Source: Myxococcus sp.
GTDB lineage: Bacteria; Myxococcota; Myxococcia; Myxococcales; Myxococcaceae
NCBI GenBank assembly: GCA_014879945.1
Contig: JACSRE010000093.1
Coordinates: 1 to 41,287, forward strand
Reading direction: 5' to 3'
Length of the DNA stretch: 41,287 nt
Shown: positions 1,287-12,703 of the stretch, one piece after another
How positions within the stretch are numbered: the first letter of the stretch is position 1
Layout: each line of letters opens with the position of its first letter
Translations under genes and position numbers: made by a program
Notes under the pieces: model-generated
Databases searched by the model: none
Seen by the model: the letters and a program-made list of their open reading frames with translations, nothing else
What the model was told of the DNA's origin: nothing

Positions 1287-3806
1287 TTGCGTTCTGCACT
1301 CCAGGCCTTGCGCGTGAGTCTGTCGAGGCACCGGGTGGCCGGGGTGGCGGCCGTGCTGGCGTGCGCGTTCGCGGCGGCGGGGCTGGCGGCGCTGCTGCCG
1401 CCCGTGTGGCGTGTGCAGGCCGAGGTGCTGGTGGCCGAGGGCTCCACCACCTATCGCCTCACCTCGCCCTTCGACGCGGTGCCGCCGCTCGACCGCGGCC
1501 TCGCGCAGCTGCCCGAGCAGCTCACCTCGCGCGCGCACCTGGTGGCGATGGTGAAGCGCACCAACCTGCTCGACCGCTGGGGGCCCTCGCGCCCCTGGCC
1601 GATGCAGCTGAAGGACCAGCTGTTGGAGAAGGTGCGCGGGCCGGTGTCAGACGAAGACAAGCTCGACGCGCTGGTGGCGATGCTGGACGACAAGCTCGCG
1701 GTCTGGGTGGAGAACGACCGGGTCTTCATCGCCTGCGCCTGGCCCCAGCGGGACATCGCGGTGGCGGTGGTCGACGGCACCGTGCGGGCGCTCCAGGGCC
1801 TGCGGCAGGAGCGGGAGATCAAGGCGCTCGAGTCGTCAGCGAGCGCGCTCGACGCGCAGCGGGAAGGCGTCGAGGCCGAGATGCTGCAGCGCCTCGAGGC
1901 CATCGAGGCCGAGCAGCGCGCCGCGCGCGCCGAGCACCGGTGGCCCTCGTACGCGGGCGCGCGGGAGCAGCTGTTGCGAGACAGCACCCGGCGCGCCGAG
2001 CTGTGGCTGCAGGCCTCGAACGTGCACCTGCGCGCCGAGGCGATGGCGCGCTCCAGCAGCCACCGCTACCTCGTCACCCGCCCTGCGCTGCCGCCGCGGC
2101 TGCCCGAGGGCGCGACCCGGGCCGGCTGGGCGCTGGCGTTCGTGCTCACCGCCGCGCTGGTGTTCTTCGCCTCGGCGGTGCTGGCCGCGTACCGCAGCGG
2201 CCGCGTCGTCTCGGGGGAGCAGCTGAGCGAGGCGCTGGGGCTGCCCGTCGTCGGCCGGCTGCAGCTGGGCTGGTCGGGCGTGATGGTGTCGGAGGGGTGG
2301 AGCACGCTCTGGCCGGGGCTGGCGCTGGGTCTCGTGTCGGGGCTCGCGCTGGCGGCGGGGAAGGGCGCGCTCGCGTGGGGCCTGGCCCCGACGGGGCTGT
2401 TGGTGGGCGCCGTCGCGCTCTGGAGGCTGCCGCTGAAGTGGCCGCTGCTGGGGCTGCTGCTGTTGGCCGTCACCGTCGACGACCCCACCGACCGGCCGTA
2501 CTTCAACCTGTGGCGCTCGCCGCTGTGGCCGGTGGGGCGGCTCTTCTTCACCAACGTCGCCTGGTTCACCGGCTTCGAGCTGGCGGTGATGGGGCTGGCG
2601 GCGCTGACGGTGATGCGGCGGGTGCTGGGGCTGTCGGCGCGGGCCGAGGCGCCCGGCATGCCAGGCCCCAGGCCGCTGCGCTCGGCCCTCTTGCTCTCGT
2701 TCCTCACCGTCTGCTGGCTCATCGCCTGGGGCCTGCTGCGCGGCGGCGTCTTCCGTGAGGCGCTGTGGCAGTTTCGCGCGCTGCTCTTCATGCCGGTGGT
2801 GGCGATGCTGGCGCTGGTGGCCTTCGACTTCCCGAAGGACCTGCGCCTGGTGGGCCGGGTGCTCGTCTTCGGCAGCGTGGTGAAGGCGCTGCTCGGCACG
2901 TTCTTCATCTATTTCGTCGCGTTGCCGATGGGCGAGTACCCGCCGCACACCACCGGCCACAACGACACCATGGTGTTCGTCGTCGGGGTGGTGCTGGCGC
3001 TGGTGCGCGTGTGGGAGTGGCCCTCGTGGAGGAACCTCTTCGAGGCGGCGGCGTGGCTGCCGTTCCTGGCGATGGCGCTGCGGCTCAACGACCGGCGCAT
3101 CGCCTACGTCGACATCGTGATGGTGCTCGGCTTCATCTACCTGATGAGCCCCATGCACCGGACCAAGCGCTTCCTCACCCAGGTGATGGTGGCGATGATT
3201 CCGGTGCTCGTCGTCTACGTGGCCGTGGGGTGGAACGCGCGGGGCGGGGTGTTCAAGCCGGTGGCCAAGCTGCGCTCCATCGTCGCGCCGGCCGCCGACA
3301 CCGAAGAAGAGAGCTCCAACGTCGAGCGCGACATCGAGAACTTCAACCTCCTCAAGTCCTGGGAGCGCGACCCGGTGCTGGGCCAGGGCTTCGGCCACGC
3401 CTTCACCGAGTTCCTGCCGTCGAACGACTTCGCCCAGTCGGCCTTCGGGCACGTCGGCCACAACTCGGTGCTGTGGCTGTTGTGGATAGGGGGCATCGCC
3501 GGGTTCTTCGGCGTCTGGCTCTACCTCGGCGTCGCCAGCTTCTTCTTCGCCCGGGCGCTGCGGGTGACCGGCGAGGTGACCGAGCGGGTCGGCCTGCTGG
3601 TGGCCATGGGCGTCGTCATCACCTACCTGCTGCAGTCGTTCGGCGACATGGGCACCCAGTCGATGCAGTTCGTCTTCTTCGTGTCGGTCGCGATGGCCGT
3701 CATCGGCCGCGCCGCCACCCGACACGGCGTGTGGCGCGCGCCGCTCACGTCGAGCGCCGCCGCCCAGGCCCCACCGTCGGCGCTGGGCCACCGCCTGGTT
3801 GCCTGA
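1287..3806 (+). CDS. Fused chain-length (Wzz/PCP) and O-antigen polymerase/ligase (Wzy) protein
   Basis: An 839-aa inner-membrane protein. Residues ~16-39 form the first membrane helix, 40-270 a periplasmic region with a likely coiled coil (~175-260), then the proline-rich TRPALPPRLPEG typical of polysaccharide co-polymerases before a second helix (~280-301) and the tail GLPVVGRL. From ~340 on there are about ten more helices with the Wzy/WaaL signature: GQGFGHAF near residue 698 and GHVGHNSVLWLLWIGG near 721-736. Residues ~88-190 align by eye with the EpsV-like protein at 9511 (KRTNLLDRW versus KQTNLLKSW; GPVSDEDKLDALV versus GPITEEDRIDAMV). It probably polymerises lipid-linked repeat units in the periplasm with built-in length control. 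The start is TTG 1287 or, equally possible, GTG 1314. Confidence 0.82.
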   Translation: MRSALQALRVSLSRHRVAGVAAVLACAFAAAGLAALLPPVWRVQAEVLVAEGSTTYRLTSPFDAVPPLDRGLAQLPEQLTSRAHLVAMVKRTNLLDRWGPSRPWPMQLKDQLLEKVRGPVSDEDKLDALVAMLDDKLAVWVENDRVFIACAWPQRDIAVAVVDGTVRALQGLRQEREIKALESSASALDAQREGVEAEMLQRLEAIEAEQRAARAEHRWPSYAGAREQLLRDSTRRAELWLQASNVHLRAEAMARSSSHRYLVTRPALPPRLPEGATRAGWALAFVLTAALVFFASAVLAAYRSGRVVSGEQLSEALGLPVVGRLQLGWSGVMVSEGWSTLWPGLALGLVSGLALAAGKGALAWGLAPTGLLVGAVALWRLPLKWPLLGLLLLAVTVDDPTDRPYFNLWRSPLWPVGRLFFTNVAWFTGFELAVMGLAALTVMRRVLGLSARAEAPGMPGPRPLRSALLLSFLTVCWLIAWGLLRGGVFREALWQFRALLFMPVVAMLALVAFDFPKDLRLVGRVLVFGSVVKALLGTFFIYFVALPMGEYPPHTTGHNDTMVFVVGVVLALVRVWEWPSWRNLFEAAAWLPFLAMALRLNDRRIAYVDIVMVLGFIYLMSPMHRTKRFLTQVMVAMIPVLVVYVAVGWNARGGVFKPVAKLRSIVAPAADTEEESSNVERDIENFNLLKSWERDPVLGQGFGHAFTEFLPSNDFAQSAFGHVGHNSVLWLLWIGGIAGFFGVWLYLGVASFFFARALRVTGEVTERVGLLVAMGVVITYLLQSFGDMGTQSMQFVFFVSVAMAVIGRAATRHGVWRAPLTSSAAAQAPPSALGHRLVA

Positions 3807-3991
3807 TGGGTCTGAGGAGCCGGGCTGCTGATGGCCTCGCAGCCTGCGCCCGCCGCCGGCCTGGTCACCGGTCGACGCGCGTCTGCGGCGGCCACCACGC
3901 GGGCGGCCCTCGAGGCCCCCCGGGGGGAGCGCTCCATCGAGCCAACCTCGCGCTCCGGTCAAAATGAGGGGTTGAGCGGGTGGATGTCGAG

Positions 3992-4015
3992 AAACCACTG
4001 TCTTCTCAGTGGTTT
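3992..4015. repeat. Perfect 9-bp inverted repeat upstream of the sigma-54-like site
   Basis: AAACCACTG (3992-4000), six-base spacer TCTTCT, then CAGTGGTTT (4007-4015), a perfect dyad. It ends six bases before the sigma-54-like element. It could be a protein-binding operator or the terminator of the upstream gene, but no T-run follows and it lies ~190 nt after the Wzz-Wzy stop. An operator is my preferred reading. Confidence 0.6.
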
Positions 4016-4250: not shown

Positions 4251-4351
4251 AACTGGCGCGGGTTGCTTGCTGCGCCGCGTTATGGGAGACCTATCGAGGA
4301 GCAGTAACGGATCAGCCGCAACTTTCACCGGTGTTTGGGGGAGAAACACAC

Positions 4352-5737
4352 ATGCACTCACTTTTCGGGCGAATTGCAGCAGGACCGGTCGCGCGGGTGA
4401 GCTTCCTGCTCGACCTGCTGTTGGTGCTGATCGCGCTGGGTGGGGCGTCGTGGGTCAGCTCACGCACGCTGGAGCCGATGACGCTCAGCCTGGTGCTCCC
4501 GGCACTCTTGACCTGGCTCATCATCGCGATGGCCCTGCGGCACTACGACCCCTGGGCCTCGGAGCGCGGCGCCTTCGACGACGCGGCGATGACGTCGGTG
4601 CTGGTGCTGGCGGTGACGACGGTGCTGGCGGTCAGCAGCCTGGTCTTCGGCGTCAAGGGCCTGCCCAACGTCGGCGTGTTCCTCCTCATCCTCTGGCCGC
4701 TCGCGGTCGGCATGCGCTTCTCGGTGTTCCGCACCTTCTCGGCGCAGTCGGGCCCCATCGACGACGTGCTCATCGTGGGCGTCGGGGCGCTCGGCCGGGC
4801 CACGGCCGACGACATTCACGGCAAGGGGCGCATGCGCGTCGCGGGCTTCGTTCGCTTCAGCGGCGAGACGACCCCCGCGCAGCTCAAGGGCAAGGTCGTC
4901 GGCACCACGGACGACCTCGACGGCGTGCTGCGGACGCTCCCGGTCGCCGAGGTGTACTTCGCCAACACCGGCCTGGCGAACGCGCCCGAGATGCAGAAGG
5001 CCATCAAGACGTGTGAGTCGTTCGGCGTGCCGTTCGCGCTGCCCGCCTCGATGTTCCGGCTCGACCGCGCCAGCCCCATGGGCAGCCACGGCGTCAAAGA
5101 CGGCTACCTGCACTACCAGACGGTGGCCTCGCGCCCCGTGGCGATGGCCTTCAAGCGCGCCTTCGACATCGTCTCGTCGGGCGTGGCGCTGTGGGTGCTC
5201 GCGCCGCTGCTGCTGGTGGTGGCGGTGCTCATCAAGGCGACCTCGCGCGGCCCGCTGCTGTTCCGCCAGGTGCGCGTGGGCCTGCACGGCCGCCCGTTTC
5301 GCATGCTGAAGTTCCGCACCATGGTCGAGAACGCCGAGGCCCTCAAAGCCGGCCTGTCGGCGAAGAACGAGATGGACGGCCCGGTCTTCAAGATGAAGAG
5401 CGACCCGCGCATCACCCGCGTGGGCAAGTTCCTGCGGAAGTTCTCGATCGACGAGCTGCCGCAGCTCATCAACGTGCTCCGCGGCGACATGAGCGTCGTG
5501 GGCCCGCGCCCGCCGGTGCCTCAAGAGGTCGCGAAGTACCAGACCTGGCAGCGCCGCAGGCTCTCGGTGCGCCCCGGGCTGACGTGCATCTGGCAGGTCA
5601 GCGGCCGCAACGAGATCTCCTTCGAGCAGTGGATGTACATGGACCTCCAGTACATCGACACCTGGAGCTTCACGAAGGACATCGGCCTCATCCTCAAGAC
5701 GTTCCCCGTGGTGTTCACCGGCCGCGGCGCGAGCTGA
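4352..5737 (+). CDS. epsZ: Polyprenyl-phosphate hexose-1-phosphate transferase (EPS priming enzyme)
   Basis: A 461-aa membrane enzyme that moves a sugar-1-phosphate from a UDP-sugar to undecaprenyl phosphate, the first step of EPS repeat-unit synthesis. Four N-terminal helices (to ~residue 125) are followed by a Rossmann-like CoA_binding_3 region starting DDVLIVGVGALGRAT, one more helix (ALWVLAPLLLVVAVLI), then the bacterial sugar transferase domain with LLFRQVRVG, MLKFRTM, SIDELPQLINVLRGDMSVVG and RPGLTCIWQVSGRN. I chose ATG 4352 because GGGGGAG at 4337-4343 sits eight bases upstream; an in-frame GTG at 4331 would put that site inside the gene. It begins the block matching the M. xanthus order epsZ-wzx-epsY-epsX-epsW-epsV-epsU. 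Confidence 0.9.
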   Translation: MHSLFGRIAAGPVARVSFLLDLLLVLIALGGASWVSSRTLEPMTLSLVLPALLTWLIIAMALRHYDPWASERGAFDDAAMTSVLVLAVTTVLAVSSLVFGVKGLPNVGVFLLILWPLAVGMRFSVFRTFSAQSGPIDDVLIVGVGALGRATADDIHGKGRMRVAGFVRFSGETTPAQLKGKVVGTTDDLDGVLRTLPVAEVYFANTGLANAPEMQKAIKTCESFGVPFALPASMFRLDRASPMGSHGVKDGYLHYQTVASRPVAMAFKRAFDIVSSGVALWVLAPLLLVVAVLIKATSRGPLLFRQVRVGLHGRPFRMLKFRTMVENAEALKAGLSAKNEMDGPVFKMKSDPRITRVGKFLRKFSIDELPQLINVLRGDMSVVGPRPPVPQEVAKYQTWQRRRLSVRPGLTCIWQVSGRNEISFEQWMYMDLQYIDTWSFTKDIGLILKTFPVVFTGRGAS

Positions 5738-5752
5738 CGCGACTCTTGCTGC

Positions 5753-7282
5753 GTGGCCGACCTCGCTGCCCAGAAGCCCGACGAAGGCGAGACCCGGCTG
5801 GCCGCGCTGAACGCGGCCAAGCTGTTCGGCTCGTTGATGGTGACGTGGGGCATCGCGCTGGGCGTGCGGCTGATGCTGCCGCGCTACCTGGGGCCGCAGG
5901 CCTTCGGCGTCTTGAACTTCGCCGACGCCTTCGTCTCGACCGTCTTCGTCCTCACCAGCTTCGGCCTCGACATCTACATCCGCAAAGAGGTGTCGGTTCG
6001 GTACGCCCACGCCTCGGAGTTCTTCGGCGGGGTGACGGCGCTGCGTGTGGGGCTGTCGCTGGCGCTCTTCGCGGGCATGCAGGGCTTCCTGGTGCTGACC
6101 GACCGGCCGCCCGAGACGTGGGCCATCGTGCATGTCTTCGGCGCGGCGGCGCTCTTCACCACCATCGGCCAGAGCCTGGCGGCGCTGCTGCACGCGCGCG
6201 GCACGGTGAACGAGCTGTCGGTGCTCAACATCGTCTCGAAGCTGGTGTGGGGCGCCGGCACGGTGGCCGCGGTGCTGCTCGACCAGCCGCTGTGGGTGGT
6301 GGGCCTGCCGCTGGCGGTGAGCGAGCTCTTGAAGCTGGTGGTGAACGCCCGCCTCGCCTCGAGGTACCTGCAGCTGCGCTGGGTGGTCGACCTCAAGGCC
6401 ACGAAGCTGGCGCTGCTCGGCTCCCTCCCGATGTTCGTCAACCTGGCCGCGCACACCATCTACAACAAGCTCGACGTCAGCATCCTCGCGGTGGTGGCCG
6501 GTGACGAAGAGGTGGCCTGGTACGGCGCGGCCAGCCTGCTCGCCGGCCTGGCGTTGATGGTGACGCCGATGATCGGCTGGGTGTTGATGCCGCTGTTCGC
6601 GCGGGCGCGGGCGCGCTCCGACGACGAGTACACGCTGGTGATGCGCCGCTCGCTCGAGCTGGTGCTGGCCATCGCCTTCCCCACCTCGCTCTTCATGGCG
6701 CTGGGCGCGAACGAGTGGGTGACGCTGCTGTACGGCGCCGCCTACGCGCCGGCGGCCACCTCGCTGAAGGTGCTCTCGAGCATCTTCGTGCTCACCTACG
6801 TCGCCATCCTCTCGGCGAACGTGCTCATCCTCACCGGGCGGGCGTGGGCGCAGGCCGTCATCTCCATCGGCGGGCTGGTGGCCAACCCGCTGCTCAACTG
6901 GCTCTTCATCCCCGCCTCGGTGAAGTGGTTCGGCCTGGGTGGCGCGGGCATCGGCGCGGCCATCTCGCAGCTGGGCACCGAGGTGGTGGTGACGGTGGCG
7001 ATGACGGCGCTGGTGGGGCGCCGCGCGTTCGACCGCCGCTCGGTCAGCGTCATCGCGCGCACCGTGGCGGCCTGCGCGCTGGTGGCGGCGCTCGACTGGT
7101 GGCTGCTCGAGCGCGCGCACCCCGCGCTGCGGTTGGCCCTCGACGCCGTGCTGTACGTCGCGCTGGTGGTGGGCTCGGGCGCGCTGAAGGTGCGCGAGCT
7201 GGTGGCCTTCGTGCGCACCGCGCGCAGCACGCCCCCGCTCCAGCCCGCGGCCCCGTTGAACGCCACTCCAGTCGTGCCATGA
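5753..7282 (+). CDS. wzx: Wzx-type polysaccharide repeat-unit flippase
   Basis: A 509-aa integral membrane protein of the MATE/MOP (polysaccharide_synt) superfamily, with about 12-14 hydrophobic helices. The N-terminal part has the usual Wzx feel: LNAAKLFGSLMVTWGIALGV, then PRYLGPQAFGVLNFADAFVS. It would flip undecaprenyl-linked repeat units made on the cytoplasmic face to the periplasm for polymerisation. GTG start 15 nt after the epsZ-like stop; its own stop overlaps the OPX gene start (ATGA), which implies translational coupling of flippase and export protein. The C-terminal ~20 residues are polar and proline-rich. Confidence 0.9.
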   Translation: MADLAAQKPDEGETRLAALNAAKLFGSLMVTWGIALGVRLMLPRYLGPQAFGVLNFADAFVSTVFVLTSFGLDIYIRKEVSVRYAHASEFFGGVTALRVGLSLALFAGMQGFLVLTDRPPETWAIVHVFGAAALFTTIGQSLAALLHARGTVNELSVLNIVSKLVWGAGTVAAVLLDQPLWVVGLPLAVSELLKLVVNARLASRYLQLRWVVDLKATKLALLGSLPMFVNLAAHTIYNKLDVSILAVVAGDEEVAWYGAASLLAGLALMVTPMIGWVLMPLFARARARSDDEYTLVMRRSLELVLAIAFPTSLFMALGANEWVTLLYGAAYAPAATSLKVLSSIFVLTYVAILSANVLILTGRAWAQAVISIGGLVANPLLNWLFIPASVKWFGLGGAGIGAAISQLGTEVVVTVAMTALVGRRAFDRRSVSVIARTVAACALVAALDWWLLERAHPALRLALDAVLYVALVVGSGALKVRELVAFVRTARSTPPLQPAAPLNATPVVP

Positions 7283-7890
7283 ACCAGACCGCCATGACGC
7301 CCTCTCTGCGACTGCTGCTCGTGTTGGTGCCCGCGCTGGCCGGGTGCTGGGCGCCCAAAGGCGTCTTCATTCCCGTCGAGGCCTACGGCGCGCACGTGCC
7401 GGGCGAGTACGTCATCGGGCCCGGCGACACGCTGCAGGTGCGCGTGTTCCAGCAAGAGGCCATGTCGGCGCGCGTGCGCGTGCGCGGCGACGGCAAGGTG
7501 TCGCTGCCGCTGGTGAACGACTGGGTGGTGGCCGGCAAGATGCCCACCCAGGTCGCCGCCGAGCTGCAGGTGCGCCTGAAGGAGTTCATCAACACGCCCG
7601 TCGTCACCGTCTCGCTCGAAGAGATGCGGCCGTTGACGGTGTCGGTGGTGGGCGAGGTGGTGCGCGCCGGGGTGGTGACGCTCGAGCCTGGCGCCGGGGT
7701 GCTGCACGCCATCGCCGCCGCGGGCGGCCTGACCGACTTCGCGCACAAAGACGGCCTCTTCGTGCTGCGCAAGCCCGGGCCCGTCGACAAGCCGGTGCGC
7801 ATTCGCTTCACCTGGGAGGCCCTGACGTCGGGCGACCAGGCGTCGGTGAAGTTCCTGCTCCAACCCCAGGACGTCGTCGTCGCCGAATGA
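7279..7890 (+). CDS. epsY: Short outer-membrane polysaccharide export (OPX/Wza-like) lipoprotein
   Basis: A 203-aa lipoprotein with signal peptide and lipobox ALAGC (Cys ~26). It has the Poly_export domain (GEYVIGPGDTLQVRVFQQE to about residue 115) and one SLBB-type domain (TVSVVGEVVRAGVVTLEPGA to ~165). It is much shorter than E. coli Wza (~380 aa) and lacks the C-terminal helix that forms Wza's outer-membrane pore. Short OPX proteins of this kind are reported to work with a separate beta-barrel porin, and such a barrel is encoded directly downstream (overlap ATGA). Role: periplasmic or outer-membrane part of the EPS export channel. Confidence 0.9.
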   Translation: MNQTAMTPSLRLLLVLVPALAGCWAPKGVFIPVEAYGAHVPGEYVIGPGDTLQVRVFQQEAMSARVRVRGDGKVSLPLVNDWVVAGKMPTQVAAELQVRLKEFINTPVVTVSLEEMRPLTVSVVGEVVRAGVVTLEPGAGVLHAIAAAGGLTDFAHKDGLFVLRKPGPVDKPVRIRFTWEALTSGDQASVKFLLQPQDVVVAE

Positions 7891-9092
7891 GCGCGCGCGC
7901 CGCCACCGTCTGCTGCGCGCTGCTGGCCGTCGACGCGGCCGCGGCGGTGGCGGGCTACGAGGTGTCGGCCACCACCACCGTCTCGACGCGCTCCCCGCTG
8001 CCCGGCGACGTGGCCGTAGGCGCCACCACCGACCTGCAGCTCGACCCCTCGGCCACCGGCACCCTCGCGTGGGGCCGCACGGTGCTGCTGCTGCGCTACG
8101 CCCCGCAGCTCATCATCCGCGAGCCGCAGGTCGCCGCGCGGGTGTTGCCCCTGCACCACGGCGTCGCCTCGTTCACGCACCGCTTCGCGCGGGCCTCGCT
8201 CTTGTTGAGCGAAGAGGCCTCGTACGGGGTGGCCGACATCGGCTCGCTGCGCCTGCCCGCCGGCGGCCGGCCGACCGGCGTCTTCGAGGTGCAGACGCTG
8301 GGGGCCGTGCCCTACGTGCGCTCGGCCTCGCTGCTGGCGTTCGACGCGACGCCCGACGACGGCGTCTCGCTCTTCTTCTCGGCGGGCTACCTGCTCTCGG
8401 GCGACCCCACCGGCGGCCTCCAGCTGCCGCTGCAGTTCGGCCCCGTCGGCACCGCGAGCCTGCGCCTGAGGGTGGACCGCCGGCTCGGGCTCCTCACGGG
8501 GGCCCAGGCGAGCCACGCCTGGTTCAACACCGGCGCCGAGCAGTCCATCGCGCTGCTGACCGAGACGGTGGAGTGGCAGGCGACGCGCGCCACCTCGCTG
8601 TCCCTGGGCGGCGGCGTGGGCGTCACGCGGGAGCGCGTGGTGGCCATGGAGGGCGGGCCCCTGCCCGGCCTCTTCTCCGAGGTGCTGCCCGTCGCCTCGG
8701 CGTCGGTGTCTTCGTCGCTCCAGCCCGGGGGCACGCCGGTGCAGGTGCAGCTGAGCGCCCTGCTGTCGCCCTTCGCCGACCGCTTCACCGGCCTGGTCTA
8801 CGAGCGCCTCGAGGGGCGCGCCTCGGCGACCTCGCGGCTCACCCGCGAGCTGAGCGCCTCGGCCGCGGCCGGCACCGGCTACGCCATTCCCATCGGGCGG
8901 GCCCAGCAGGCCGGCGACAGCGCCACCTTCGGCGAGGCCTCGCTGCGCTGGGAGCCGTCGTCGTGGCTCGCGCTGGTGGGCACCGGCCGCTTCGTGTGGA
9001 CCGAGCAGCCCCGCACCGGCCAGCCCGGCCAGGCCCTGTGGGCCGTCACCATCGCCGCCGTCGTGCGCGACCGCGACACCACCGCCTTTTGA
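7887..9092 (+). CDS. epsX: Outer-membrane beta-barrel for EPS export (Wzp/EpsX-like)
   Basis: A 401-aa protein with an N-terminal signal (MSARAATVCCALLAV, cleavage near AAAAVAG) and then alternating hydrophobic/polar strands throughout, ending in DTTAF with a terminal Phe as expected for a BAM-inserted barrel. Examples of strand-like segments: TVLLLRYAPQLIIRE, GVSLFFSAGYLLSG, WLALVGTGRFVWTEQ. No enzymatic motif seen. It is coupled to the short OPX gene by a 4-nt overlap, the arrangement known for OPX-plus-porin pairs in myxobacteria. The gene name rests on position in the conserved order and on fold, so it is less certain than for its neighbours. Confidence 0.75.
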   Translation: MSARAATVCCALLAVDAAAAVAGYEVSATTTVSTRSPLPGDVAVGATTDLQLDPSATGTLAWGRTVLLLRYAPQLIIREPQVAARVLPLHHGVASFTHRFARASLLLSEEASYGVADIGSLRLPAGGRPTGVFEVQTLGAVPYVRSASLLAFDATPDDGVSLFFSAGYLLSGDPTGGLQLPLQFGPVGTASLRLRVDRRLGLLTGAQASHAWFNTGAEQSIALLTETVEWQATRATSLSLGGGVGVTRERVVAMEGGPLPGLFSEVLPVASASVSSSLQPGGTPVQVQLSALLSPFADRFTGLVYERLEGRASATSRLTRELSASAAAGTGYAIPIGRAQQAGDSATFGEASLRWEPSSWLALVGTGRFVWTEQPRTGQPGQALWAVTIAAVVRDRDTTAF

Positions 9093-9127
9093 GTTCTGCT
9101 AACACCCACCCGGGGGACCCCACCGTC

Positions 9128-9514
9128 GTGAGCGAGCACCAACACACCGCGCTGGTCGTCGACGACGACCCCGACATCCGCAAGGTCATCGGCGCCTACC
9201 TGACGCGCAAGGGCTTCACCGTCACCTTCGCCGCTGATGGGCGGTCGGCCATCACGCAGCTCGACGAGGTGCGGCCTTCGCTCCTGTGCATCGACCTGAT
9301 GCTGCCCGAGTCGTCCGGCTACGACGTGTGCGACCACGTCAGGGCGTCGCCGACGCTCAAGGGCATGCCGATTCTGATGATCAGCGCCCGCACCATGCCC
9401 GAGGACCGCGCCTACGCCGAAGAGCTGGGCGTCAAGTGCTACCTCGCCAAGCCCTTCACCCAGGCGCAGTTCCTCGCCGCCGTCGAAGAGACCCTGAGCC
9501 AGGACGCCACGTGA
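9128..9514 (+). CDS. epsW: Single-domain response regulator (EpsW-like)
   Basis: A 128-aa CheY-like receiver with no output domain. Acidic pocket VVDDDPD, phospho-acceptor Asp in LLCIDLMLPESSGYD, switch Ser in LMISAR and conserved Lys in YLAKPF are all present, so it should be phosphorylated. GTG start at 9128, with GGGGGAC (9112-9118) as a possible ribosome site in the 35-nt gap after the barrel gene. Its stop overlaps the chain-length gene start (GTGA). A lone receiver inside the assembly operon implies that signalling acts directly on the machinery; the partner kinase is not in the window. Confidence 0.85.
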   Translation: MSEHQHTALVVDDDPDIRKVIGAYLTRKGFTVTFAADGRSAITQLDEVRPSLLCIDLMLPESSGYDVCDHVRASPTLKGMPILMISARTMPEDRAYAEELGVKCYLAKPFTQAQFLAAVEETLSQDAT

Positions 9515-11040
9515 GCCACCCCGCCGCGCCGCTGCCCACCTCGCCGACGCCCCGCGAAGAGTCGCTCGACCTCTTCGACTACGCGCTGATTCGCAACGTC
9601 ATCGGCTTCGTGTTTCGTGGCGTGCGGCGCCACCGGCTCTTCACGCTGTTGGTGTTCGCGCTGGTGCTGTGGCTCGGCGCGGTGGCCGTCTTCCTCGTGC
9701 CCCGCACCTGGCACGCCGAGGCGCGGCTGCTGGCGAACCAGAACGAGATCATCCGCGCCCTGGGCAACCCCCGCTCGAGCCTGCAGTCCGAAGACCCGAC
9801 GCGCGCCGCGCGCGAGCTCATCTTCGCGCACGACAACCTCGTCTCGCTCATCAAGCAGACCAACCTGCTCAAGAGCTGGGAAGAGCACCGGCCGCCCGCG
9901 GTGCGCGTGAAGGACCTGCTGATGCGGCTCGTCACCGGCCCCATCACCGAGGAGGACCGCATCGACGCCATGGTGGGCACGCTCGAGAAGCGGCTCAAGG
10001 TCGAGACCGACGCGCAGACCGTCACCATCACCGTGGACTGGCAGGACCCGCAGACGGCGTACCTGCTGGTCGAGACCGCGCAGCAGAACTTCCTCGAGAC
10101 GCGCCACGTCACCGAGATGACCGCCATCAGCGAGGCCCTCGCCATCCTCGAGAGCCACGCCTCGCAGGTGCAGAAGGCCGTCGACGACGCGCTCCACGAG
10201 CTCGAGCGCGTTCGCGAGGAGCGGCGCAAGGGCGGCGCCACCGGCGGCGGCCCCGTGCCCCCCGGAGAGACGGGCCAGGCCTTCGCGCCGCTCCCGCCGC
10301 CGCCCGCGCCCGAGCCTCCGCCCAACGCCGCGCCGGGGGCCACCGACCAGGAGCTCGCGCAGCTGAAGTTCCTGCTCAACTCCAAGCGCCGCGCCCTGGC
10401 CGACCTCGAGGACTTTCGCAGCCGGCGCCTGAGCGAGCTGACGGTGCAGCTGCAGGACTACCGGGTGCAGTACGCCGACCAGCACCCCGTCGTCATCGAC
10501 GCCCAGCAGCGCATCACCCAGATGAAGGGCGACTCGCCGCAGATGTCGCAGGTGAAGGCCGACATCGAGAGCCTCATCGCCGAGTACCGCCGCAAGGGCG
10601 GCCGCGACCCAGACTCGGTCGTCGAGCCCGTGCGCGCCTCGCCGCGCGCCTCGCCCCGGCGCGGCCAGCAGACCCAGGTGGCCCTCACCAACTCGGAGCT
10701 CTCCGACGACCCGCTCGTCGAGCACGCCCGCAACAACCTGCGCGTCGCGGCCGCCAAGTACGAGGAGCTGATGATGCGCATCGACGGCGCCCGCATCGAG
10801 CAGGACACGGCGCGCGCGGCCTTCAAGTACCGCTACAGCGTGGTGCGGCCCGCCTCGGTGCCCCGCAAGCCCGCCTCGCCCAACGCGGTGGTGCTGATGG
10901 TGGCGGTGGTGGTGGCGGCGCTCGGGCTCGCGCTGGTGACGGGGGCCGCGCGCGACCTGCGCTCCGGCACCTTCGTCGAGCCCTGGCAGGTCAGCCGCCG
11001 CCTGGGCCTGCCGGTGGTGAGCCAGGTGAAGTTGTCATGA
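9511..11040 (+). CDS. epsV: Chain-length determinant (Wzz/PCP-2-like), no kinase domain
   Basis: A 509-aa inner-membrane co-polymerase. The first helix is ~residues 40-65 (FTLLVFALVLWLGAVAVFLV), followed by a long periplasmic region with coiled-coil stretches and a Pro/Ala-rich insert (~248-276, containing PLPPPPAPEPPPN). The C-terminal helix (~463-483) is preceded by VVRPASVPRKPASPN, the usual PCP proline motif. The cytosolic tail is short (RRLGLPVVSQVKLS), so no BY-kinase domain is fused. It sets EPS chain length and links polymerase to export channel. Its N-terminal ~200 residues are paralogous to those of the Wzz-Wzy fusion at 1287. Start (GTG) and stop overlap its neighbours. Confidence 0.88.
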   Translation: MSHPAAPLPTSPTPREESLDLFDYALIRNVIGFVFRGVRRHRLFTLLVFALVLWLGAVAVFLVPRTWHAEARLLANQNEIIRALGNPRSSLQSEDPTRAARELIFAHDNLVSLIKQTNLLKSWEEHRPPAVRVKDLLMRLVTGPITEEDRIDAMVGTLEKRLKVETDAQTVTITVDWQDPQTAYLLVETAQQNFLETRHVTEMTAISEALAILESHASQVQKAVDDALHELERVREERRKGGATGGGPVPPGETGQAFAPLPPPPAPEPPPNAAPGATDQELAQLKFLLNSKRRALADLEDFRSRRLSELTVQLQDYRVQYADQHPVVIDAQQRITQMKGDSPQMSQVKADIESLIAEYRRKGGRDPDSVVEPVRASPRASPRRGQQTQVALTNSELSDDPLVEHARNNLRVAAAKYEELMMRIDGARIEQDTARAAFKYRYSVVRPASVPRKPASPNAVVLMVAVVVAALGLALVTGAARDLRSGTFVEPWQVSRRLGLPVVSQVKLS

Positions 11041-12254
11041 CGGCGGCCGTCGCCGTCGCCTGCGGCCTGGCGCTGCTGGGCGTGCCCGTCTTCGTGGCGT
11101 GCAGCTACCTGGGCGGGCTGGCGCTGCTGTCTCGCCCCCTGCCGCCGCCGGTCGCGCCGTCGCCCGCGACGCTGCGCTTCGACGTGGTGGTGCCGGCGCA
11201 CGACGAAGCGGCCGGCATCGGCGCGACGGTGAAGAGCCTGCTGGCCCTCGACTACCCCTCGAGCCTCTTTCGGGTGGTGGTGGTGGCCGACAACTGCGCC
11301 GACGCCACCGCCGAGAAGGCGCGCGAGGCCGGCGCCACGGTGCTCGAGCGCGCCGACGCCGAGCGCCGCGGCAAGGGCTTCGCGCTCGCCCACGCCTTCG
11401 AGTGGAGCCTGGGGCAGGGCACCGCCGACGCCTGCGTCGTCGTCGACGCCGACACCGTCGTCTCGAAGAACCTGCTGTCGGCCTACGCGGCGCGGCTGGC
11501 CCGCGGCGCCACCGCCATGCAGGCGCACTACGGCGTCGCCAACCCGCTGGCCTCGTGGCGCACGCGGCTGATGCGCATCGCGCTGGCGATGTTCCACCAG
11601 GTGCGCTCCACCGCCCGGGAGCGCCTGGGCGTCTCGTGCGGGCTGCGCGGCAACGGCATGTGCTTCTCGACCGCCCTGCTGCGCGAGGTGCCGCACGACG
11701 CCTTCTCGCTCGTCGAAGACCTCGAGTACGGCATTCGCATCGGCCGCCGGGGCCACCGGGTGTGGTGGGTGGGCGAGGCCGACGTGCTGGGCGAGATGGT
11801 GTCGGGCGAAGCGGCGTCGGTGTCGCAGCGGCGGCGCTGGGAGCACGGCCGCGCCGAGATGGTGAAGCTCCACGGGTGGCCGCTGTTGTCCGAAGCGCTG
11901 AAGAAGCGCGACGGCCTGCTGCTCGACCTCGCCATGGACGTGCTGGTGCCGCCGTTGAGCCGGGTGGTGATGGCCGCCGGCGCCGGCCTGGTGGCGTCGT
12001 GGGCGCTGGCCTTCTTCTTCCCCTCGCCGGCTGGGTTGGCGCCGCTGTCGCTCTTCACCGCCTGCGTCACGGCGCTGGGGCTCTACGTGGGGGCGGGCTG
12101 GCTCCACTCGGGCACCGGCCTGCGCGGCCTGCTGGACCTCGCCTTCGCCCCGGCCTACGTGGCGTGGAAGGTGGCGCTCGCGGTGCGCGGCCGGGCGGGG
12201 CAGAAACCACAGACGTGGGTACGCACGACACGCGAGGGTGAGACGCGGCCATGA
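11037..12254 (+). CDS. epsU: Membrane-bound GT2 glycosyltransferase (EpsU-like)
   Basis: A 405-aa enzyme with an N-terminal helix, a cytosolic GT-A domain and ~3 C-terminal helices. Seen: FDVVVPAHDEAAGIGATV, DxD in VVDADTVV, the ED site VEDLEYG and QRRRWEHG (QxxRW type), which together resemble BcsA/hyaluronan-synthase-like transferases. It probably adds a sugar to the lipid-linked EPS repeat unit; a processive role cannot be excluded because QxxRW is present. ATGA overlaps occur at both ends, so it belongs to the same operon. It matches the EpsU position after EpsV in M. xanthus. Confidence 0.82.
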   Translation: MTAAVAVACGLALLGVPVFVACSYLGGLALLSRPLPPPVAPSPATLRFDVVVPAHDEAAGIGATVKSLLALDYPSSLFRVVVVADNCADATAEKAREAGATVLERADAERRGKGFALAHAFEWSLGQGTADACVVVDADTVVSKNLLSAYAARLARGATAMQAHYGVANPLASWRTRLMRIALAMFHQVRSTARERLGVSCGLRGNGMCFSTALLREVPHDAFSLVEDLEYGIRIGRRGHRVWWVGEADVLGEMVSGEAASVSQRRRWEHGRAEMVKLHGWPLLSEALKKRDGLLLDLAMDVLVPPLSRVVMAAGAGLVASWALAFFFPSPAGLAPLSLFTACVTALGLYVGAGWLHSGTGLRGLLDLAFAPAYVAWKVALAVRGRAGQKPQTWVRTTREGETRP

Positions 12255-12703
12255 GCAAGGCGAAGACAGACGGCCGGCCCAGGCTGACCCAGCAGGTCTA
12301 CCAGCAGCTCGCCGGCGTGATGCGCGGCACCTGGCAGTCGCTCGCGGTGGTGCCGGCCAGCCCGTCGATGTCGGCCAGCGCCTTCGCCGAGGCCGTCGTC
12401 GAGGTGGCGCGGCTGGCCCGGGGCGCGCCGGCGAAGCTGTTCCTCACCGAGGGCCTCGAGAAGGCCGGCGTGTCGAAGCTGATCGTCGAGCTGAGCCAGC
12501 ACGTCGACCAGGGCGGGCTCGCGGTGGTGTGCGTCGAGTCGGTCATCTCACAGCAGGCCGGCGTGCCGCTGGCGATGGTGTGCGACGCGGCGCTCCTGGT
12601 GGTGCACCTGGGCGTGACGCGCAAAGAAGACGCCGAAGGCACGGTGGGCATCATCGGGAAGCAGAAGTTCCTCGGCGCCGTCACCATCGAGTCGATGCGC
12701 TGA
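12251..12703 (+). CDS. P-loop-less CpsD/Wze-like protein (possible BY-kinase pseudoenzyme)
   Basis: A 150-aa protein, ATG in an overlap with the GT2 stop. Its layout resembles the second half of CpsD/Wzc tyrosine autokinases: a strand GLAVVCVESVISQQAG where kinases have a Walker A' (IIDTPP), then AMVCDAALLVVHLGVTRKED and LGAVTI, like 'aDgvllVvr.g.t' and 'lGvVln'. The catalytic Asp/Pro positions are replaced (VCVESV), no GxxxxGKT/S Walker A is visible, and there is no tyrosine-rich tail (a single Tyr, residue 17). It would not bind ATP normally. A structural partner of the EpsV-like protein is my inference; a diverged enzyme of other type is possible. Confidence 0.5.
   Translation: MSKAKTDGRPRLTQQVYQQLAGVMRGTWQSLAVVPASPSMSASAFAEAVVEVARLARGAPAKLFLTEGLEKAGVSKLIVELSQHVDQGGLAVVCVESVISQQAGVPLAMVCDAALLVVHLGVTRKEDAEGTVGIIGKQKFLGAVTIESMR

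Follow-up and report, generated by a model that had tools for sequence, protein, structure and literature searches.

A single gene in a Myxococcus sp. eps locus (positions 1287-3806, forward strand, 839 amino acids) encodes a co-polymerase (PCP) domain that runs on into a Wzy-type polymerase, and the same locus keeps a separate, full-length PCP, EpsV. We refer to the whole stretch of DNA analysed, 41,287 nucleotides in length, as the window. The parts are all of known kinds; their PCP-Wzy arrangement is new. The exopolysaccharide (EPS) pathway of M. xanthus has Wzy_EPS (MXAN_7442) and EpsV (MXAN_7421) as two distinct polypeptides (PMC7484181), and we found no prior description of a natural PCP-Wzy (Wzz-Wzy) fusion in the open-access literature. 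The finding touches on the question of how a Wzz/Wzc ring controls Wzy: a natural covalent link, present in several genera and with at least two origins, provides independent evidence for a working contact between PCP and Wzy.

The window contains an eps locus

Judged by its genes, from which EPS production by these uncultured bacteria is predicted, the window holds an eps locus of the myxobacterial type that is complete; its genes correspond to the core of the EPS pathway in M. xanthus. Besides the fusion, the forward strand encodes an EpsZ-type phosphoglycosyl transferase (4331-5737; PF02397, E 1.8e-69), a Wzx flippase (5753-7282; PF01943, E 1.1e-19), an EpsY-type OPX export protein (7279-7890, with an inferred start; PF02563, E 4e-21, plus SLBB), an EpsX-type outer-membrane beta-barrel (7887-9092; NCBIfam EpsX, E 6.9e-20), an EpsW-type response regulator (9125-9514; PF00072, E 7.4e-24), the separate EpsV (9511-11040, its start inferred from relatives; NCBIfam EpsV, E 1.6e-106, and an AF2 model) and the glycosyltransferase EpsU (11037-12254; NCBIfam EpsU, E 4.4e-172). 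The 150-amino-acid protein encoded at 12251-12703 (+) is a probable EcpK-like pseudokinase, as suggested by its being a syntenic, conserved small protein that lacks a Walker motif; it matched nothing in the family models or in a profile search of solved structures. A preliminary description of this DNA had placed two related co-polymerases in one locus, and we find them in the PCP half of the fusion and in full-length EpsV.

PCP and polymerase form one uninterrupted polypeptide

The preliminary description also held that PCP and polymerase are carried on one polypeptide, which the reading frame and the matches to both NCBIfam families bear out. The open reading frame starts with a TTG that aligns with the start codons of its relatives and contains no internal stop across 839 codons. 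GC at the third codon position lies between 0.91 and 1.0 in each 210-nt slice of the gene, junction included, indicating that no frameshift is hidden in it, and the frame across the junction is open in all ten aligned relatives. Taken together, these observations rule out a frameshift or stop between the two domains. The NCBIfam model for EpsV (NF041864) matches residues 5-218 (E 9.4e-17) and that for Wzy_EPS (NF041870) residues 364-816 (E 1.1e-112). In Pfam, the fusion scores 17.3 bits with Wzz (PF02706), under the cut-off of 25.5 bits, as does the window's own EpsV in hmmscan (22.1 bits), and Wzy_C does not match the fusion protein. The AF2 model (pLDDT 74.5, pTM 0.61, from an alignment of ten sequences) places a disordered linker between a PCP half (residues 1-305) and a multi-TM half.

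Following the suggestion to survey myxobacterial Wzy proteins for the fusion, 195 genomes of the phylum Myxococcota were covered, and the full-length architecture was present in 11 of them, in four genera of one family. In the remaining eps-bearing genomes, among the matches listed, the Wzy half alone was matched, with one exception (G029, described below), and the other loci examined in unfused genomes yielded no further double-domain reading frames. Three matches with one apparent stop inside, considered as in-frame epsV-wzy neighbours, were not borne out: epsV lies on the opposite strand in G087 and G123 and is absent nearby in G014.

The fusion is therefore real and not an artefact. That the ten named fusion-bearing relatives are all metagenome-assembled genomes (of Myxococcaceae/Archangium-like bacteria) could speak for an assembly or sequencing error, but the identical architecture in eleven genomes, at protein identities as low as 42%, already refutes a reading to which we give practically no credence, and the codon statistics are uniform along the gene.

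The fused PCP halves are monophyletic, as are the fused Wzy halves (support 100/100 for each), and the separate EpsVs of the fusion genomes likewise group together, with support of 98/93 in one tree and 100/100 in another. All fusion genomes but one (10 of 11) yielded a separate EpsV; the exception, G050, is 80% complete and split into 740 contigs. In close relatives, three of them of the same genus (G131, G132 and G134) and one further genome (G051), neither EpsV nor a Wzy_EPS relative was found. Three of these four genomes are 98-100% complete, and the whole eps pathway seems to have been lost or replaced in them.

The C-terminal half is a predicted EPS polymerase

Residues 338-839 (2298-3806, +) form a WaaL-like multi-TM polymerase half, assigned by its NCBIfam Wzy_EPS match, its similarity to WaaL and its invariant residues. 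In the model, this half adopts a multi-TM WaaL/Wzy fold: WaaL (7tpg) matches residues 379-812 with a Z of 22.7 over 372 aligned residues (VIA-align), and the Foldseek/VIA matches listed include no solved Wzy. Seven polar residues (H558, D560, R603, R604, R681, H704 and H725) are invariant in fused and stand-alone Wzy proteins. The fusion scores 377 bits with NF041870, under the equivalog cut-off of 670, and is the genome's only match to the Wzy_EPS family. Beyond it, the same genome holds another PCP and three more Wzy_C-type matches, none of which was recovered by a search with the fusion. We describe this half as a predicted EPS polymerase.

The N-terminal half is a shortened, diverged paralogue of EpsV

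The PCP half (residues 1-305; 1287-2201, +) was delimited from model secondary structure, hydropathy, structural matches and alignment with EpsV. It comprises TM1 (about residues 16-36), a membrane-proximal alpha/beta part, a shortened helical hairpin (155-260) and TM2 (about 278-304), so that in model and hydropathy profile two TM helices flank a periplasmic alpha/beta and helical domain. Residues 3-305 match Wzc (Z 13.5) and KpsE (Z 15; VIA-align), and a profile search also recovers the solved PCP PslE.

Its kinship with the EpsV of the same locus, including the shared segments TNLLDRW/TNLLKSW and DEDKLDALV/EEDRIDAMV, had been proposed in the preliminary description; both segments are present, and the paralogy holds. 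The two proteins are 25% identical over 326 positions, and BLASTP aligns them with 70.5 bits (E 1e-17) plus a second segment of 35.4 bits, against a best score of 26.9 bits in 200 shuffles of EpsV. A search of the fusion's own genome (E<=0.01) returned the fusion itself and EpsV only, and not the unrelated PCP at C351. Chance similarity of two PCPs is thereby ruled out. Because its score with NF041864 (60.7 bits) is far under the equivalog cut-off of 800, the PCP half is a paralogue of EpsV and not its equivalent. Sequence comparison thus identifies it as a true, strongly diverged EpsV paralogue. A PCP tree did not place the duplication precisely, owing to the length of the fusion branch (2.2 changes per column; AU p 0.34 for its attachment); the PCP from C351 is too distant to serve as outgroup.

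Upon alignment, we noticed that EpsV residues 227-383, 157 amino acids of the periplasmic helical arm, have no counterpart in the fusion. The missing stretch is the middle of the arm, which in the AF2 model of EpsV contains helices 264-305, 311-324 and 328-346. The fusion thus lacks a full-length arm, and of the "complete two-helix PCP" of the preliminary description, the two helices stand and the completeness does not. Among 54 near-invariant EpsV columns, 14 are deleted with the arm, 21 are kept and 19 are changed; those retained include W108, R112, W162, R183 and the prolines 432, 436 and 439 that precede TM2. In six of six pairs tested, dN is below dS in the PCP half, and in each tested pair its dN exceeds that of Wzy and that of EpsV, estimates that are rough, given a third-position GC of about 97% in this DNA. 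In one fusion genome (G130, L040:1079-3385, +), the PCP half is strongly degraded, with about 26% identity and no recognisable EpsV tail, which is possibly a late stage of decay.

The two halves are joined by a cytoplasmic linker (residues 306-337; 2202-2297, +), recognised by alignment, near-neutral pN/pS and a pLDDT below 50. Alignment derives it from the C-terminal tail of EpsV (LGLPVVGRLQL versus LGLPVVSQVKLS). Its pN/pS is near-neutral in several pairs, so that it drifts almost without constraint, and the alignment of relatives shows no conspicuous conserved motif in it. A published model docks EcpK onto the EpsV C-terminus (PMC12004946); the tail that binds EcpK in this model persists in the fusion as the near-unconstrained linker.

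The fusion probably arose from a coupled gene pair

In four unfused genomes (G088, G139, G042 and G137), wzy lies directly 3' of epsV and starts within the epsV stop codon (GTGA/TTGA), giving a 4-nt overlap that makes the origin of the fusion plain. Close epsV-wzy neighbours on the same strand recur in many other Myxococcota loci. In addition, a small ORF (1108-1278 in the window) precedes the fusion in the fusion genomes and is gone from its old place before epsW-epsV or epsV. In the simplest history, the coupled epsV-wzy pair and the small ORF would have been duplicated or moved beside a gene for a GH44 family protein, and a frame change would have removed the stop-start overlap. Complementary losses may then have left epsW and full-length epsV in one copy, and in the other wzy, the small ORF and, of epsV, the membrane-proximal part.

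G029, a genome from a different family of the same taxonomic order, encodes a second fusion (L076:5932-9000, -; 1023 amino acids): an EpsV-like region (20-491), in which the arm is largely kept and the cytoplasmic tail gone, followed by Wzy (523-995). Here, too, the small ORF precedes the fusion, and a separate EpsV is encoded 13 kb away. A constraint that groups the G029 Wzy with the remaining fused Wzys is rejected (AU p of 0.00127); on the PCP tree, a common origin of both fusions is not rejected (AU p 0.29). The Wzy tree thus rejects a single origin of the Myxococcaceae and G029 fusions, and the combination of a fused PCP-Wzy with a free EpsV has at least two origins, the second resting on this one genome.

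A proposed docking subunit in the EpsV ring

Wzz and Wzc rings are octamers with a membrane cavity that has room for one Wzy (PMC10030265; PMC12881504). WzzE:WzyE was measured at about 8:1, WzyE being located inside the lumen of the ring (PMC10030265), and a Wzc-Wzy platform is predicted at the same ratio of 8:1 (PMC12881504). We lean, if only slightly, toward a docking model: by way of its shortened PCP half, a single polymerase would attach to a ring of the separate EpsV or be built into it. In this model, the PCP half keeps the two membrane helices and membrane-proximal domain that would build a PCP ring, and has lost much of the arm that would otherwise reach the outer-membrane export protein. 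It may thus serve for docking, holding one Wzy inside the EpsV ring or next to it, with the flexible cytoplasmic linker of about 32 residues as the tether. The remaining ring subunits, the contact for export and the site that binds the EcpK pseudokinase would come from the separate EpsV.

The model is consistent with the 8:1 ratio of WzzE to WzyE. The preliminary description had suggested direct mechanical coupling of chain length to polymerisation, or hetero-oligomeric PCP rings; both ideas, which run ahead of the evidence, would agree with this ratio and with the retained EpsV. A ring built of fusion proteins only would hold eight polymerases and a mixed ring one, which would make the retention of EpsV intelligible; likewise, if a single fused subunit sits in an EpsV ring, loss of the arm and of the EcpK tail in the fused copy becomes intelligible. 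Docking is further supported by the presence of EpsV both in G029, where the fusion is independent, and in at least 10 of the 11 genomes, by the 21 of 40 remaining invariants that are kept, by dN below dS in the PCP half, and by the single clade that each half forms. By contrast, the fast evolution of the PCP half, the change of the other 19 invariants and the decay in G130 count against it and fit a fading domain equally well. We hold more tentatively a wider reading, that of a mixed co-polymerase ring, arisen at least twice, in which one subunit carries a covalent polymerase, the short PCP docking and the full-length PCP exporting. If true, a gene fusion sets both the ratio of polymerase to ring and the position of the polymerase.

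The main rival to docking is that the PCP half is a fading relic, a mere N-terminal membrane anchor of Wzy, and that the separate EpsV does the co-polymerase work. The decay in G130 favours fading, as do the lost arm, the near-neutral tail, the changed invariants and a dN above that of Wzy and EpsV in all tested pairs. We nevertheless consider it unlikely: the open frame persists over four genera, at whole-protein identities down to 42%, together with the two TM helices and the membrane-proximal fold, dN still remains below dS, and a new start codon would easily shed a dispensable extension of 300 amino acids. Less probable again is a division of labour in which the fusion forms a homo-oligomeric ring that governs polymerisation and EpsV a ring for export only. 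It would accord with a fused PCP that keeps the ring-forming fold without the arm and an EpsV that has it, but would place a multi-TM polymerase on every subunit, which disagrees with the eight WzzE measured per WzyE and with a single Wzy in the lumen (PMC10030265; PMC12881504). Cleavage after synthesis into a separate Wzy and a short PCP, to which the flexible and poorly conserved linker would lend itself, is very improbable, as the linker lacks a standout conserved motif and the stop-start overlap used by unfused relatives yields two proteins more simply. We give scarcely any weight to the notion that fusion and EpsV, each of which keeps its own gene position, serve two different polysaccharide pathways, as both lie in one operon-like locus with a single PGT, Wzx, OPX and barrel, in a genome without another Wzy_EPS-family match.

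Comparison with known systems

Like EpsV of the MXAN_7421 type (PCP-2, NF041864), the fusion has two TM helices, the membrane-proximal fold and the proline motif before TM2, and neither has a kinase domain; it differs in the 157 missing amino acids of the arm, in the drifting C-terminal tail and in running on into a polymerase. Wzy_EPS of the MXAN_7442 type (NF041870) is homologous along the whole polymerase, with the polar residues invariant in both forms, but is a stand-alone protein in M. xanthus and, with few exceptions, in the other eps-bearing Myxococcota that were searched. In the WzzE-WzyE system of enterobacterial common antigen (8:1), co-polymerase and polymerase form one complex, as in the docking model (PMC10030265). 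There, however, they are two separate proteins of a PCP-1-class system, whereas the fusion is covalent and accompanied by a second, free PCP. In PCP-2a proteins such as Wzc, the cytoplasmic C-terminus of the PCP is also fused to a pathway component, a tyrosine kinase rather than a membrane polymerase. Like the bipartite PCP-2 systems EcpK/EpsV and HfsB/HfsA (PMC12004946), the present locus has a kinase-less PCP, its EpsV, with a small EcpK-like gene downstream; to these the fusion adds a third, polymerase-linked PCP polypeptide.

Wzy is not visible in the high-resolution map of WzzE (PMC10030265), suggesting that the PCP-Wzy complex is hard to keep intact. For structural biology, the fusion offers a construct whose polymerase and co-polymerase cannot come apart. 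It also provides a genetic handle on chain-length control, in which the link is severed and the parts are restored separately, and the pairing of a fused short controller with a free full-length one offers a natural test of how the two proteins cooperate.

Neighbouring genes

Opposite the eps genes, the minus strand contains long antisense ORFs (1836-3998, 720 amino acids; 4460-7120, 886 amino acids), which stem from the extreme GC content and show no evidence of being genes. At the left edge of the window, which cuts it, lies a gene for a GH44 family glycoside hydrolase (5-1111, +; Pfam PF12891, E 8.5e-45). It adjoins the fusion in every fusion locus that extends far enough and is also present in many unfused eps loci; its place in eps loci and beside the polymerase gene suggests that the enzyme may act on EPS. 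Between GH44 gene and fusion lies the conserved small hydrophobic ORF (1108-1278, +; 56 amino acids), which has no family match. By tblastn, fusion genomes carry it immediately before the fusion, and unfused genomes upstream of epsW-epsV or epsV, an association seen across Myxococcota; it may encode a small membrane component of the EPS machinery that has gone unrecognised.
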